NCBI RefSeq assembly: GCF_015210005.1
Contig: NZ_MU158698.1
Coordinates: forward strand, 1,909,479 to 1,973,478
Source: Sphingobacterium hungaricum
GTDB taxonomy: Bacteria; Bacteroidota; Bacteroidia; Sphingobacteriales; Sphingobacteriaceae
Length of the DNA: 64,000 bases
Direction: 5' to 3'
Shown: positions 32,736-46,398 of the stretch, piece by piece
How the letters are laid out: every line of letters begins with the position of its first letter
Numbering within the stretch: the stretch's first letter is position 1
Program-made: the position numbers and the translations under genes
The notes under the pieces: model-generated
What the model was told of the DNA's origin: nothing
Database searches by the model: none
What the model saw: only the letters and a program-made list of their open reading frames with translations

Positions 32736-34217
32736 TTATTTATCATTTAATATAGTTGAAATGTTCGTGTTGTATGCTTTAAACGCTGGAATTACGGATG
32801 CAATAAGTCCCACTAAGATAGCAAAAAGGATCAATATCCACTCTTTTGGCAGGATATTGAATACTTCAATAAAATCAGCGCTTTGGCTGGTTTGTTGCGT
32901 AATAAAATACAAAGCCAAATGCCCTAGAAGTAAACCCAAAATACCGCCGATCAACGTAATCACTAATCCTTCGACAATAACAAGTGTGAAAAGTTTATTT
33001 TTGCTTGCGCCCATCGAACGCATAATTGCCAAATCATATTTGCGTTGTTTTAGCGCGTTGTATAGACTGATGAAAATACTTAAGCCAGCGATAAACATGA
33101 TTACGTAGGCTAAGATCTCTAATGAATCAATTCCGACACCAATCAATGAGAACAAGCGAGTTGTTTCAATTGCAGGAGAAGCGGCCTGCATATTTGTAGT
33201 CTGATTGACCAATTTTGGAATGACGCTGATCGCTGCAGGAGAACGATAACGCACCAAAAGAGCGGTGATTTCTAAGCCTTGATCTTTTACCATGTCTTGA
33301 CCGATCGATTTGATAAAAACATCATTTCTGCCAGCTATGGCTTCTTCTCTCGAAACAACTTCTTCCTCATGAGCATGACCTTCATGATTTTCGTTTGTTG
33401 TTGCAAGCGTGTCTTTAGTTGCGCTCTCATGACTGTGGTCATGATCAGTATGCTCATCGTGATCATGAGATTCAGTTTCATGATTATGGACGCTGTCCGA
33501 ATGGTTATGTCCATGATGTTCATCAGTCTGCTGAGAACCATGGTCGTGTTCATGGTCGTGTGCGTGGTCAGCATGTTCTTCATGATCATGTTCTTCATGA
33601 TGAATCCCATGTACATCCCAAACACTTTCCAGATTGCAGAGGATTAAGTTGTCTACGATTGAATTAGATTTCTCTAAAATGCCAACAACCACAAAAGGGT
33701 GATCATCGTGAACATGTCCTTCGGCAGATAATCCATGAGCGCCGTGAATTTCATCGCCGATTTTTAGCTGATGTTTGCTAGCAGTTTCGCTACCAACGAT
33801 CGCTTGGAAGCTTTTGTTCCAAATTTTTCCTTCACGAATCGTTAAACCATACAATTCTAAATAACTGCTATCTGTTCCGATAATGCGGTGTCCCTTATAA
33901 TTATCTCCCAAGGAAATAGGAACAGCCAATTCGATCAAAGGGTTATTTGCAATCTCTAGGGCTTCTGTTAAAGGGATATTCCCAGTTGGATTGTCTACAT
34001 GATATAAAGAAGACAGAATCAATTGCAACGGGCTTCCTTTTGCACCGATGACTAAATCAATATCCTTGCTGTTATTATCCAATTGCTTTTCGATGGAATC
34101 ACTGCTCACATACAGCACCGTCAAAATCGCGATTCCGAAAGCAGTAAGCAGTATGCTTAAAAAGGTATTTCCTTTTTGTTGGGATAAGTTTTTCCAGACT
34201 AATTGTAAACTGTTCAT
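32736..34217 (-). CDS. FtsX-type ABC permease with histidine-rich periplasmic insert
   Basis: A 493-residue permease of the MacB/LolC type. One N-terminal membrane helix (about 17-37), a periplasmic domain and three C-terminal helices (about 370-390, 415-440 and 460-480). The cytoplasmic loop reads RKYDLAIMRSMGASKNKL, which contacts the ATPase. The periplasmic domain carries a low-complexity insert at about 203-283 with some 26 histidines plus many Asp and Glu, a clear metal-binding stretch. It is followed by DUF3299 and preceded by the ATPase gene, 12 bases away. Inferred role: zinc or other divalent metal transport or release. Confidence 0.85.
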   Translation of the reverse strand: MNSLQLVWKNLSQQKGNTFLSILLTAFGIAILTVLYVSSDSIEKQLDNNSKDIDLVIGAKGSPLQLILSSLYHVDNPTGNIPLTEALEIANNPLIELAVPISLGDNYKGHRIIGTDSSYLELYGLTIREGKIWNKSFQAIVGSETASKHQLKIGDEIHGAHGLSAEGHVHDDHPFVVVGILEKSNSIVDNLILCNLESVWDVHGIHHEEHDHEEHADHAHDHEHDHGSQQTDEHHGHNHSDSVHNHETESHDHDEHTDHDHSHESATKDTLATTNENHEGHAHEEEVVSREEAIAGRNDVFIKSIGQDMVKDQGLEITALLVRYRSPAAISVIPKLVNQTTNMQAASPAIETTRLFSLIGVGIDSLEILAYVIMFIAGLSIFISLYNALKQRKYDLAIMRSMGASKNKLFTLVIVEGLVITLIGGILGLLLGHLALYFITQQTSQSADFIEVFNILPKEWILILFAILVGLIASVIPAFKAYNTNISTILNDK

Positions 34218-34229
34218 TTTTTGCTGATT

Positions 34230-34862
34230 TTACAATTGATAGGTATGAGAGAAATGATCTTTGATTCGTTTATCATGCGTTGCAATGAGCAAGGTCGATT
34301 GGTATGAATTTGCAATAGCAAATAACAAATCCAATACCCGCTGGGTGTTGCTGTCATCCAATGCGGCTGTCGGTTCGTCTGCAATCAATAAAGCAGGTTT
34401 GTTGATAATCGCTCTAGCAATCGCAGCGCGCTGTAATTGGCCACGGCTGATTTCGTTTGGATAACTGTTGGCTTTCTCGTCCATTTCCAGCATCGCTAAT
34501 AATTCATGAATGGCTGGCACATCAACTTTGTTATTTGCTAAACTTTGCGCCAATTTGATATTTTCCAGAATAGTGAAATTACGAAGCAAATGAGCTTCTT
34601 GAAAAATAAAGCCAATATGTTTTGCACGGTAGCTATCAAGTGCACTACCACTCAACTTGTACAAATCTTGTCCATTCAAGAAAACAGTTCCGGAACTCGG
34701 TTTAGAGAATCCGGCTAATAAATTTAATAAGGTTGTTTTTCCTTTTCCTGAATCTCCAAGCAACAGCGTATGCTGCAATTGCTCCATGTGAAGATTCTGA
34801 AATCGCATAGGTGTGCTGTTTGGATATTGGAATACTAGTTCGTGTGTGGATAATACGTCCAT
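34230..34862 (-). CDS. ABC transporter ATP-binding protein (LolD/MacB type)
   Basis: A 210-residue ATPase that powers the adjacent FtsX-type permease. Motifs: Walker A GDSGKGKT (36-43), Q-loop near FQEA (87-90), signature ISRGQ (138-142; the second glycine of the usual LSGGQ is Arg), Walker B LLIADEPTAALDD (158-170) and the H-loop THD near residue 196. First gene of a three-gene operon (ATPase, permease, DUF3299). This order matches, from memory, a zinc-regulated ABC system described in Vibrio (zrg genes). Here the separate His-rich binding protein is missing, and the permease carries the histidines instead. Confidence 0.85.
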   Translation of the reverse strand: MDVLSTHELVFQYPNSTPMRFQNLHMEQLQHTLLLGDSGKGKTTLLNLLAGFSKPSSGTVFLNGQDLYKLSGSALDSYRAKHIGFIFQEAHLLRNFTILENIKLAQSLANNKVDVPAIHELLAMLEMDEKANSYPNEISRGQLQRAAIARAIINKPALLIADEPTAALDDSNTQRVLDLLFAIANSYQSTLLIATHDKRIKDHFSHTYQL

Positions 34863-34970: not shown

Positions 34971-35049
34971 GTTAACAATTCGGTAACACTATACTAATGC
35001 ATTGATAATCCTTTGGTAACATTCACCTAATACTACCCTCATAATTTTG
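34971..35049 (+). promoter_or_regulatory. 11-bp-phased direct-repeat operator and -7 box of a TonB receptor gene
   Basis: Seven-base units recur every 11 bases: 34971 GTTAACA, 34982 GGTAACA, 34993 ACTAATG, 35004 GATAATC, 35015 GGTAACA, 35026 CCTAATA and a weaker 35037 CCTCATA. Units 1-6 all have TAA at positions 3-5. The -7 box TAATTTTG (35042-35049, exact TAnnTTTG) begins 9 bases after the sixth unit, and the gene's ATG is at 35070. A 7+4 repeat close upstream of the promoter core is the design of PhoB/PhoP-type (OmpR family) response-regulator boxes, and TTAACA with 5-base spacing is the B. subtilis PhoP form. Regulation by phosphate is an inference. Confidence 0.6.
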
Positions 35050-35069
35050 CAACATACATTTAACATAGT

Positions 35070-37808
35070 ATGATTCAATTTTACAAATCATTTATTCTTT
35101 GTCTCGTGTTATTTACCGCGAGCATCAATTTAGTTTTTTCACAAAGTGTTATTATAAAAGGAAAAGTTTTAGATATAGATACCTATCAACCTATTGCTGG
35201 AGCAACAATCAAATTAGCCAATTCGGCTCTCGCAACGACGACTGATACCAATGGAGAATTTGACTTAAAAATCCAAGAAGTTGGAGAAGAATTCGGAATC
35301 GTTGCATCATATGTTGGCTATAAAGCAGAATCTACTTTAGTCAAAACTACCGGAGGCGGAACAAAGCAAGTAAGCATCCTATTAATCAACGAAAATTCGA
35401 CAATCGATGAAGTAGTTGTTACAAGACGCAGAGTGCAAGCTAGCGAATTAGCTTTATTGGAAGAACGCCGATTAGCGACATTAACCGTAGAGAAAATCGG
35501 AGCACAGGAATTATCGAGAAAAGGCGTGGGCGATGTTGCTACCGCGGTAACCAAAATGTCTGGAATTTCAAAAGAAGACGGAAGCAGCCAAGTATTTGTA
35601 AGAGGATTGGGCGACCGATACAATTCTACTGCGTTAAATGGATTGCCGATTCCTTCAAACGATCCTGAAAAGAAAAACATTGATTTAGACTTATTTTCTA
35701 CAGATATCGTCGAATATATTTCCGTAGATAAAGTCTATAATGCGTCGATGGCAGGAGATTTCGCTGGGGGTAATGTGGATATTTATTCAAAGAATTACAG
35801 CGGAGACGGATTATTTTCTGTTCAAATTGGGACGAGTATAAATACGAACTCAATCAACCAGTTTGATAACTTTTACTTAAATCAAGGGCATAATTTATTT
35901 GGGTTTTCTCCCTATCAAGTTCCTGCAAATGCATTGACCTCATATGATTTTCAGAACAGTTTAAATCCTAAAAAAGTTTCTCCTTTAGCGGGAAACTTAG
36001 GTCTGCAAGTGGGCAAATCCTATACATTTAACGATGACAGCCGATTAAATCTTTTTGCGACAGGTAATTTTTCTAGCGGGTATGAATACCAAGAAGGGAT
36101 AAATAAGGAGATTGATGCGCAGGGAGATAATGTTAACGATTTGACCTATAGACGATCTACTTACAAAACGAATACAACAGGTTTGTTCAACGCAAATTAT
36201 ACATTAAAGCCTAATCAGACGATTGCTTACAATTTTATGTTTGTCAATAGTTCTTATCAAGCTAGGAATGTCTTTGAAGGAAAGAAACGTGATCAAGCGG
36301 ATGACTACAATGGCTTACTTCAGCGTGGAACGTATGTCCAGAATAAGTTGTTCGTTAATCAGTTATTAGGAAATCACAAAATTAATGATCGAATTGATTT
36401 GAATTGGGGAGCTTCCTTTGACGTTGTTCAAAGCGATATGCCAGATCGGACTTGGTTCAACTTAAAATATGACCCAAATGTAGACGGGTATACAGTTATC
36501 GGAAACGCAAGTAACCACCGCTATTATCAAAGTTTGATAGAGGATGAAATTGCAGTCAATTTAGCAGCGAAATATAAAATTGGGGATGTTGATAAACCAA
36601 AAGGCTTATTTACTCTTGGATATAGTGGAAAATTCAAAAAAAGAAACTTTGAAGCTATCCAATTCAATTTTACAATTAACGGAAATAATTTTTCTACAGT
36701 TGTTGATCCAAATAACTTAGACGGTTTCTTCAATCAACCGAATTACGAATCTGATTTTTTCAACATTTCTGCATTTTCTCAAAATACGCCTCAAACATAC
36801 AATGGCGATCAAAAAATACACTCCGTTTTTGGGAATTTAGAATATAATTTGTCAGAAAAATTAACTTCAGTATTGGGAATCCGCTACGATAAGCTTTCTC
36901 AGATGGTAAGCTGGAGAACTCAATTGGACGGAAACGGTGGGACGAATACGTTTAGCAGAAACGAATTTTTACCTAGTTTAAATTTAAAATATGCGGTCAA
37001 CGAAAAGCAAAACTTACGCTTAGGAGCCAGTAAAACATATACATTACCACAATTTAAAGAACGCGCACCTTTCTTATTTGAGGATGATGATTTGATTGTG
37101 AAATACGGTAATCAATACTTGTACCCTTCGCAAGACTATAATTTGGATTTAAAATGGGAGTTCTTTCCAAAAGCATCTGAACTGGTTTCAGTTACATTGT
37201 TTGGGAAGTACATTGTCGATCCAATTAATGAAACTTTCGTCGCTTCCTCTTCCAATGATATTTCTTATGTAAACATCGGTGATCATGGAACTGTCTATGG
37301 AGTTGAGTTTGAACTAAAGAAGGACTTATTGAAGTTCAATAATGATAATGATGTCCTATCTGGAGGTTTAAACTTCGCCTACATGAGAACTAATCAAGAA
37401 TTAGATTCAGAAAAGGTAGCGAGAGAAACGAATTTTACAATTAACCTAACAGATAATACTTCTAGTTTCACTGGCGCTTCTGATTTACTGATTAACGGCG
37501 ATTTAAGTTATTCAAAAAACTGGGAGAGTGGTGCAAACGTAATGGCGACAGCTGTATACTCTTACTATTCTGATAAGATTTATGCGCTTGGATCGTATGG
37601 AAAAGGAAATTTGATTGACAAAGGTGTGGGTATGTTAGACATCGTGTTACGAAGCAAAATCACAAAAAAATTCGGCATCAATTTTACCGCGAAAAATATT
37701 TTAAATCCAGAATTCAAAAGAATTCAAGCAAACGAAAATGGAGATTTTCCAGTGTTGACCTACAAAAGAGGTGCATTTTTTAATCTTGGCTTGAACTATA
37801 ATTTTTAA
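35070..37808 (+). CDS. TonB-dependent receptor
   Basis: A 912-residue outer membrane receptor. The signal peptide is about 1-24 (ending VFSQ). It has a carboxypeptidase-like regulatory domain (about 25-115, IIKGKVLDIDTYQPIAGATI), a plug with the sequence FVRGLGDRYNSTALNGLPIPS (about 175-195), and a large barrel ending with an aromatic Phe (NLGLNYNF). The plug motif is typical of receptors paired with a downstream beta-helix surface lipoprotein, rather than of SusC. The next gene, 51 bases on, is such a lipoprotein. The upstream phased operator suggests control by a response regulator, possibly phosphate starvation. The ligand is unknown. Confidence 0.85.
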   Translation: MIQFYKSFILCLVLFTASINLVFSQSVIIKGKVLDIDTYQPIAGATIKLANSALATTTDTNGEFDLKIQEVGEEFGIVASYVGYKAESTLVKTTGGGTKQVSILLINENSTIDEVVVTRRRVQASELALLEERRLATLTVEKIGAQELSRKGVGDVATAVTKMSGISKEDGSSQVFVRGLGDRYNSTALNGLPIPSNDPEKKNIDLDLFSTDIVEYISVDKVYNASMAGDFAGGNVDIYSKNYSGDGLFSVQIGTSINTNSINQFDNFYLNQGHNLFGFSPYQVPANALTSYDFQNSLNPKKVSPLAGNLGLQVGKSYTFNDDSRLNLFATGNFSSGYEYQEGINKEIDAQGDNVNDLTYRRSTYKTNTTGLFNANYTLKPNQTIAYNFMFVNSSYQARNVFEGKKRDQADDYNGLLQRGTYVQNKLFVNQLLGNHKINDRIDLNWGASFDVVQSDMPDRTWFNLKYDPNVDGYTVIGNASNHRYYQSLIEDEIAVNLAAKYKIGDVDKPKGLFTLGYSGKFKKRNFEAIQFNFTINGNNFSTVVDPNNLDGFFNQPNYESDFFNISAFSQNTPQTYNGDQKIHSVFGNLEYNLSEKLTSVLGIRYDKLSQMVSWRTQLDGNGGTNTFSRNEFLPSLNLKYAVNEKQNLRLGASKTYTLPQFKERAPFLFEDDDLIVKYGNQYLYPSQDYNLDLKWEFFPKASELVSVTLFGKYIVDPINETFVASSSNDISYVNIGDHGTVYGVEFELKKDLLKFNNDNDVLSGGLNFAYMRTNQELDSEKVARETNFTINLTDNTSSFTGASDLLINGDLSYSKNWESGANVMATAVYSYYSDKIYALGSYGKGNLIDKGVGMLDIVLRSKITKKFGINFTAKNILNPEFKRIQANENGDFPVLTYKRGAFFNLGLNYNF

Positions 37809-37859: not shown

Positions 37860-39047
37860 ATGAAAAATTCAATTAAAAAAACTTTGGGAATGGCTGTGTT
37901 ATCAATGGCTGTTTTGGCATCATCTTGTACGGATTCGGGTACAGATCCAATCATCGAAGAGCCTACATCTACGTTTGTTTTAAATCCTTCTGATTTAAAA
38001 GGTAACATCAATGACGGAGAAGTTGTTTTGGAACCAGGAACTTATAAATTAACGGGTAAACTTCAAGTAAATAACGGAGCTAAATTGCGCATCAAAGCGG
38101 GTGCTAAGATTGAAGCAACTGCAGTAGCAGGAGCGACGGGAGAATCAATTCGTTATATTGCTGTTTCACAAGGTGCACAGATTTTTGTAGAAGGAACGTC
38201 TACAAATCCTGTGATTATGACTGCTGATGTAAAAGCTCCTGAATCTTGGGGTGGTTTAGTAATTTGTGGAAAGGCTCCAATCAACAAAGGTACTACAGGA
38301 GTTGCAGAGGTGTCTGATCTTACTTATGGTGGAACAGTTGCTGATGATAACTCTGGTTCGATTAAATACTTGCGTATTGAGTATTCTGGTTACAGATATA
38401 GTTCTACAAAGGAATTTAACGGTTTGTCATTATTTGGTGTAGGTAATGGAACTACAATTGAATATGTTCAAGCTTATGAAGGTTCTGATGATGGATTTGA
38501 ATGGTTTGGTGGAACTGTAAATGCTAAATATTTAGTAGTTAACAATGCTGCTTCTGCGGTAGGTGATGATATGTTTGACTGGACTGAAGGCTGGGTTGGA
38601 ACTGGCGAATATTGGTACGGTGTTAAGAAAAATGCAGGAAATAGAGGTATTGAAGCGGATAACAATTCAGATAATCAAACAGCGGCTCCATACTCTAATC
38701 CAACAATTAGAAACATCACATTAATCGGTAATTTGGATACAGATCCAGAGCCTCAAGGGATTAAGCTTAGAGTTGGTACAAAAGGTATCTTAGATAACGT
38801 TGTATTAAGCAAATGGAAAGTTGGTATTGATGTTGAAAATGATGTTACATTAGTGAATGTTGCTGCTGGAAGTTTAAAAGTAACGAACGTAAGATTTGAT
38901 CAAGTAACAACAAAAGCAACAGGTAAAACTTCTGCTGGTGTTACTACAGATTTAGCTGCTGTATACACGGAAAATGCTTCAGCAACAGGTGCAGGTAATG
39001 GAGCTGGTGTTCCAACTTGGACTGCTGGTTGGACTGTAGGTTTGTAA
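37860..39047 (+). CDS. beta-helix surface lipoprotein partner of the TonB receptor
   Basis: A 395-residue lipoprotein. The signal peptide ends ASSC (Cys23). The rest is rich in Gly, Asn, Thr and Val with repeated short strands (KLQVNNGAKLRIKAGAKIEA, GLVICGKAPIN, IKYLRIEYSGY, IEYVQAYEGSDDGFEWFGG), the pattern of a right-handed parallel beta-helix. It is likely surface exposed and passes a ligand to the receptor encoded just upstream. No catalytic motif is evident. The two form one operon closed by a strong terminator. Function not assigned. Confidence 0.75.
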   Translation: MKNSIKKTLGMAVLSMAVLASSCTDSGTDPIIEEPTSTFVLNPSDLKGNINDGEVVLEPGTYKLTGKLQVNNGAKLRIKAGAKIEATAVAGATGESIRYIAVSQGAQIFVEGTSTNPVIMTADVKAPESWGGLVICGKAPINKGTTGVAEVSDLTYGGTVADDNSGSIKYLRIEYSGYRYSSTKEFNGLSLFGVGNGTTIEYVQAYEGSDDGFEWFGGTVNAKYLVVNNAASAVGDDMFDWTEGWVGTGEYWYGVKKNAGNRGIEADNNSDNQTAAPYSNPTIRNITLIGNLDTDPEPQGIKLRVGTKGILDNVVLSKWKVGIDVENDVTLVNVAAGSLKVTNVRFDQVTTKATGKTSAGVTTDLAAVYTENASATGAGNGAGVPTWTAGWTVGL

Positions 39048-46291: not shown

Positions 46292-46398
46292 TTTGATTAA
46301 ATATTTATTCTAATTTAACATTAATGAGTCAAATTCGCAATTTATTTTACATGTTCTTAATACAAACGTGAAAAAAAACGCATATCAAGATTTCATGG

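Follow-up and report, generated by a model that had tools for sequence, protein, structure and literature searches.

In Escherichia coli, the Pho box sits just upstream of the core promoter. It consists of tandem 11-nt direct repeats, each with seven well-conserved nucleotides plus four, which are bound head to tail (PMC4415409). A literature search for Pho boxes in Bacteroidota found none apart from the putative Pho boxes reported in plcP clusters of marine bacteria (PMC4796936). DAP-seq of the Riemerella anatipestifer regulator PhoP yielded the motif TTTAACA, and the promoters assayed by EMSA included that of a TonB receptor; the authors compared the PhoP motif with that of ArcA and discussed ArcA-like redox control (PMC9603813).

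In Flavobacterium johnsoniae, a TonB receptor (Fjoh_0545) and an outer-membrane lipoprotein, FII (Fjoh_0546; IPR011050), are encoded in the phoBR cluster (PUSIV), and their transcripts are induced on phosphate depletion with FC values (log2 by the text) of 8.02 and 9.91 (PMC8115612). Uncharacterised low-phosphate loci, including Fjoh_0546, are tightly repressed at iron and nitrogen limitation in the same report. Phosphate-induced receptors and lipoproteins of F. johnsoniae are already known; the operator is not described in the main text of PMC8115612, in which the terms 'pho box', 'promoter' and 'motif' are absent. ElpS of Caulobacter crescentus is a lipoprotein produced under phosphate starvation (PMC2996285), and FI, FII and FIII show 31–36% identity over 50–54% to a Caulobacter low-phosphate lipoprotein (PMC8115612).

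The 64-kb stretch of Sphingobacterium DNA analysed here (the window) contains a comparable gene pair, preceded by an array of short repeats (Table 1). TAA occurs at positions 34973, 34984, 34995, 35006, 35017 and 35028, a spacing of exactly 11 bp. The units that carry it read, in order, GTTAACA, GGTAACA, ACTAATG, GATAATC, GGTAACA and CCTAATA, and are separated by 4-bp spacers. Like the E. coli Pho box bound by PhoB, the array is thus made of tandem 11-nt direct repeats with seven conserved nucleotides plus four. It differs from the E. coli Pho box in its TTAACA-like rather than CTGTCAT unit, in its six slots and in a promoter with a TAnnTTTG -7 box, the Bacteroidota type; judged by eye, this promoter has no -33 element. 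The earlier note had counted six to seven units, and the six with TAA in register stand. The claimed seventh, CCTCATA (35037..35043, +), was rejected: it lacks TAA, it covers the gap and the start of the -7 box, of which its final two bases are the first, and its columns before the box are poorly conserved among relatives (majority frequency 0.33–0.67). The unit count is therefore six.

Table 1. Features of the locus and of a related array elsewhere in the genome; positions refer to the window unless a contig is named.
Feature	Position	Strand	Basis
Six-slot 11-bp direct-repeat array, predicted PhoB-binding operator (tandem Pho boxes)	34971..35032	+	Spacing, conservation, matrix match
Strongest Pho-box match, units 1–2, 13.55 bits, rank 1 in window	34972..34989	+	pstS/phoB/pit matrix
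-7 promoter box TAATTTTG, TAnnTTTG type	35042..35049	+	14 bp past last TAA; register common to relatives
TonB-dependent receptor, 912 aa (CarbopepD_reg_2, Plug, beta-barrel)	35070..37808	+	Domain matches, orthologues
Lipoprotein, 395 aa, beta-rich predicted fold	37860..39047	+	Homologue beside receptor in relatives; invariant C23 in signal
Second six-TAA 11-bp array (L225), before TonB receptor and phytase gene (PF02333)	G000:C2:1980438-1980503, ~7 kb past window end		

The array is unmatched in the window: no other run of five or six TAA at 11-bp spacing occurs in it, and the longest run on the minus strand has four. In 60 second-order Markov copies of the 64-kb window (one strand), runs of three appeared 39 times and longer runs never. 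Among 20,000 first-order copies made of the 207-bp intergenic region, 527 contained a run of three, 24 one of four and none one of five or six.

Receptor orthologues were sought in 59 genomes, 36 of them of the genus, at a threshold of E <1e-150. Twenty genus genomes, including the window's own, encode one at 38–55% identity; loci L062, L063 and L068 were left out of this count. In all 20 promoters the six slots stand in a single register relative to the -7 box, with 15–18 of the 18 TAA letters and 5–6 of the six box letters matched in the best register. This register is constant even though the start used lies anywhere between 22 and ~140 bp away. A score of at least 21 is reached by 19 of the 20 promoters (search stretch set by hand at six loci) and by only 23 of 219,512 positions across both strands of the same loci, and the counts at scores 22, 23 and 24 (9, 7 and 2) are all accounted for by genus promoters; as these promoters share descent, such counts are not independent. 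Among nine arrays less than 75% identical, the three TAA columns are conserved at 0.98, 0.89 and 0.98 and the other unit columns at 0.52–0.72 (search stretch set by hand at eight loci). Slot 3 carries TAA in only 5/20 genus arrays and lacks it in the other 15/20.

Beyond the genus, named genomes were scanned and the best 80 of 581 confirmed receptor loci were used, 79 of them for promoter counts, since L212 has no upstream DNA. In the 62 promoters of L162–L224, which are mostly from Flavobacteriaceae and include four from Sphingobacterium (L213 and L214 seemingly already among the genus 20), a score of at least 19 was reached by 50 at period 11 and by 0, 0, 1 and 0 at periods 9, 10, 12 and 13, respectively. 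Only 0.11% of dinucleotide shuffles score as high at period 11. Twelve promoters fell below 19, and ten of these stayed at 15–18 even on a wider look. The other two, L222 (23) and L203 (22), both from Sphingobacterium, have arrays further upstream that were missed at first because the starts were misplaced; the count was kept at 50/62. In the arrays of other genera, TAA is present at slot 3 in 5/50 (absent in 45/50) and at slot 6 in 12/50, where the commonest reading is TTTACA. Within the Chryseobacterium-type block (L145–L161, mostly Chryseobacterium and kin), a six-slot array was found in only 1/17 promoters. Several promoters of this block have three or four phased TAA but lack an in-register -7 box.

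Related species preserve the phasing, as the earlier note had called for, both in the genus and in these mostly Flavobacteriaceae receptors. The array is a real regulatory element that has been conserved; since distantly related bacteria share its layout, the switch itself looks real. DNA curvature or AT-rich promoter composition, acting at a period near one helical turn and with no specific protein, might be invoked for an intergenic region that is indeed AT-rich and whose 11-bp repeat is close to that turn. It is nevertheless a very improbable explanation: none of the 20,000 simulated intergenic regions held a run of five or six, other periods account for 0–1 of 62 promoters, the TAA letters are more conserved than the rest of the unit, and a matrix built from other genes locates the site.

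Expectation maximisation was used to derive this matrix from pstS, phoB and pit promoters only, 51 in all, drawn from 19 genomes; three of the 51 promoters belong to the window's genome, and receptor promoters were excluded. The phoB and pit promoters of G056 (L124 and L144) were dropped before the matrix and spacing counts, so that 51 of 53 were used. The pstS/phoB/pit matrix, TTAACAnnnnnTTAACA, reads TTAACAATTTcTTAACAT. It places units 1–2 first among ~128,000 window positions, ahead of a runner-up at 12.60 bits. Of the remaining slot pairs, only units 5–6 come near, at rank 21. The runner-up lies at window positions 46346-46363 (+), before an Asparaginase_2 gene, and by eye has no -7 box at the 14-bp distance. 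Within the genus, TAA[CT]-7-TAA[CT] is found upstream of 13/13 pstS, 19/19 phoB and 19/19 pit genes, and six alternative spacings of the pair each occur in 0–6 promoters. Sites similar to the array thus precede core phosphate genes of both the genome and the genus, as the earlier note had anticipated and as expected of a Pho box.

PhoB is by far the likeliest binder of the array, and the six repeats are very probably docking sites for this phosphate-starvation regulator. The candidate protein in the window's genome (gene at G000:C2:2131576) comprises a receiver and a Trans_reg_C domain. In NCBIfam it matches PhoB models best, at scores below the curated cut-offs (222.6 of 296.2; 221.2 of 270), so its name rests on synteny and on its match to the receptor-linked regulator of F. 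hydatis. In the window's genome, this phoB-linked Flavobacterium regulator finds C2:2131573 at E 1.8e-80 and its next match at 3.4e-37, a clear reciprocal match. Of the best 80 receptor loci, 63 encode a homologue of PhoB (E up to 1e-20), counting two weak matches, a partial one in L159 (6e-23) and one in L208 (4.7e-48), and one in L216 that is not divergent. At 60 of the best 80 loci, phoB is divergent and lies no more than 1.4 kb from the receptor, and it is divergent beside the receptor in 12/17 of the Chryseobacterium-type loci. A PhoR-like kinase also falls below its own curated cut-off. It is encoded at L228:2066-3094, directly upstream of a PhoU_div-Pit operon and on a different contig from phoB; at 342 residues, it leaves no room, by eye, for a long periplasmic domain.

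Two other kinds of regulator must be weighed against PhoB. TonB receptors are often iron-regulated, and an iron-responsive Fur-type operator would account for such control. Head-to-tail 11-bp repeats common to phosphate genes and the tight repression of Fjoh_0546 at iron limitation (PMC8115612) make this the least probable of the readings considered. Another OmpR-family regulator with an ArcA-like 11-bp code might instead bind the array and respond to some other cue, for instance redox state. Searching the window's genome with a PhoB-type query does give 18 matches (E up to 1e-10), the PhoB-type protein misses the PhoB cut-offs, and the authors of PMC9603813 themselves compared the R. anatipestifer PhoP motif with ArcA's. 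That PhoP comes from the same phylum and resembles the array in its TTTAACA core letters, a likeness of name and motif; redox control is discussed by its authors, and no array layout is described in the available text. This alternative is unlikely, since the same sites lie upstream of pstS and pit and also of the PhoB-type gene, phoB and the receptor gene so often stand next to each other in divergent orientation, and phosphate depletion induces the F. johnsoniae pair, with Fjoh_0546 reported as repressed at iron and nitrogen limitation (PMC8115612). The PhoB reading of the 11-bp array, which the earlier note had advanced, is supported by the conservation, by the pstS/phoB/pit motif and by the phoB linkage.

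The array-to-box register recurs in part of the phosphate regulon: it is kept in receptor (20/20) and pit (19/19) promoters, lies one slot further in phoB promoters (19/19) and is partial in pstS promoters. With one mismatch allowed, a -7-like box is found 14 bp past a TAA in 19/19 pit promoters and 25 bp (14+11) past a TAA in 19/19 phoB promoters; for pstS, 7/13 have it at 14 bp and 7/13 at 25 bp. Competing offsets of -7-like boxes are 8 bp in 10/19 pit and 11 bp in 16/19 phoB promoters. When exact box letters and an adjacent TAA are required, phoB and pstS promoters never fit the 14-bp register; in them a register is seen only when one box mismatch is allowed and TAA is demanded at no more than a single one of the following three slots. 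The register to the -7 box is a preferred one, and other offsets occur.

It is highly likely that the array is a tandem PhoB operator that switches on the receptor and lipoprotein under phosphate starvation. In the proposed mechanism, a PhoR-type kinase would phosphorylate the PhoB-type response regulator on phosphate starvation, and this regulator would occupy the six slots head to tail, with each 11-bp slot taking one monomer. The promoter-proximal monomers, at the -33 contact position, would recruit RNA polymerase to TAATTTTG. The receptor and surface lipoprotein would then be switched on, and phosphorus compounds would be the cargo scavenged.

Such a switch is of an ordinary, known kind, and the six-slot layout with its weak third slot and common register looks the part most worth following. 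It is conceivable, if somewhat doubtful, that a PhoB operator of six slots, the third of them weak, kept across families with one -7 register, acts as a graded or threshold switch that distinguishes this pair from genes with two slots, pit among them, and that TTAACA-N5-TTAACA plus the register reads the Pho regulons of the phylum. If so, this code and register would let Bacteroidota Pho regulons be read from sequence; a searchable, conserved Pho-box code with a preferred -7 register makes regulon prediction in this phylum testable. Six slots with a weak third also pose a concrete question on cooperative PhoB binding.

The receptor–lipoprotein pair corresponds to the phoBR-linked F. johnsoniae pair induced on phosphate depletion (PMC8115612), in agreement with the link to phosphate that had been suggested for it. 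Both consist of a TonB receptor followed by a lipoprotein. Unlike Fjoh_0545/0546, the window's pair is unlinked from phoB, and the likeness is drawn via F. hydatis and F. pectinovorum. By analogy with the promoters of these two species (L171 and L197, respectively), the F. johnsoniae promoter probably carries the array as well. All of the best 80 named loci encode a lipoprotein homologue, which lies downstream of the receptor in 79/80; in L154 the best match is upstream. An open frame of 382–408 aa with a lipoprotein-like start follows the receptor in 20/20 genus genomes, and G056 has one of 404 aa. The lipoprotein has no match in Pfam or NCBIfam at 0.001; an alignment (n=31) contains ten invariant acidic residues. 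Its AlphaFold2 model has a mean pLDDT of 89.8. A fold search with the lipoprotein gave 334 matches at E up to 10 and none at 0.001 (best E 9.4e-3), and the 50 matches listed are, by name, mostly beta-helix proteins. The predicted fold is thus weakly like parallel beta-helices, namely beta-helix enzymes and tailspikes, in line with the earlier description of a beta-helix lipoprotein. ElpS, from a different phylum, is likened to the window lipoprotein by description (PMC2996285). Divergent from the receptor, window positions 32736-34862 (-) encode, by eye, an ABC exporter permease with a long His-rich stretch and an ATPase; in L054 and L060, too, the receptor is preceded by ABC-type sequence of a similar sort.

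Pattern searches of the 4.06-Mb genome that were blind to gene function reached, among other places, the promoter of pstS, which is followed by ABC permease and ATPase genes, and the promoters of the PhoU_div-Pit operon and the PhoB-type regulator. The same searches returned many matches without an evident phosphate link. Pairs of TAACANNNNNNTAACA are in mild excess (24 vs 17 in the control), many of them without an evident phosphate gene, so one such pair alone predicts little. A loose composite (two TWA plus TAnnTTTG) showed no enrichment in this genome, with 20 matches vs 26 in the reversed control. The two units that precede a SusC gene at C2:2319880 were excluded from the Pho set. Four TAA at 11 bp occur 17 times vs 10 in the control. 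Six TAA in register occur at only two places in the genome, each of which makes up three consecutive four-TAA matches among the 17.

The second of these places, C2:1980438, precedes a TonB receptor and a phytase gene, and the sixth TAA of its array overlaps the -7 box. A table for F. johnsoniae lists a phosphate-induced receptor and phytase, Fjoh_1368/1367 (PMC8115612). Phytase-receptor promoters of 11 genomes keep four slots in the 14-bp register in six cases; two others have phased TAA without that register, and three have none evident. The phytase motif lies behind the receptor in 10/11 genomes. Elsewhere in the genome, around bases 1400-1700 of L005 (G000:C2:627602), a CRISPR-like array with a repeat of ~36 bp (GTTGTGATTACC...) is visible by eye.
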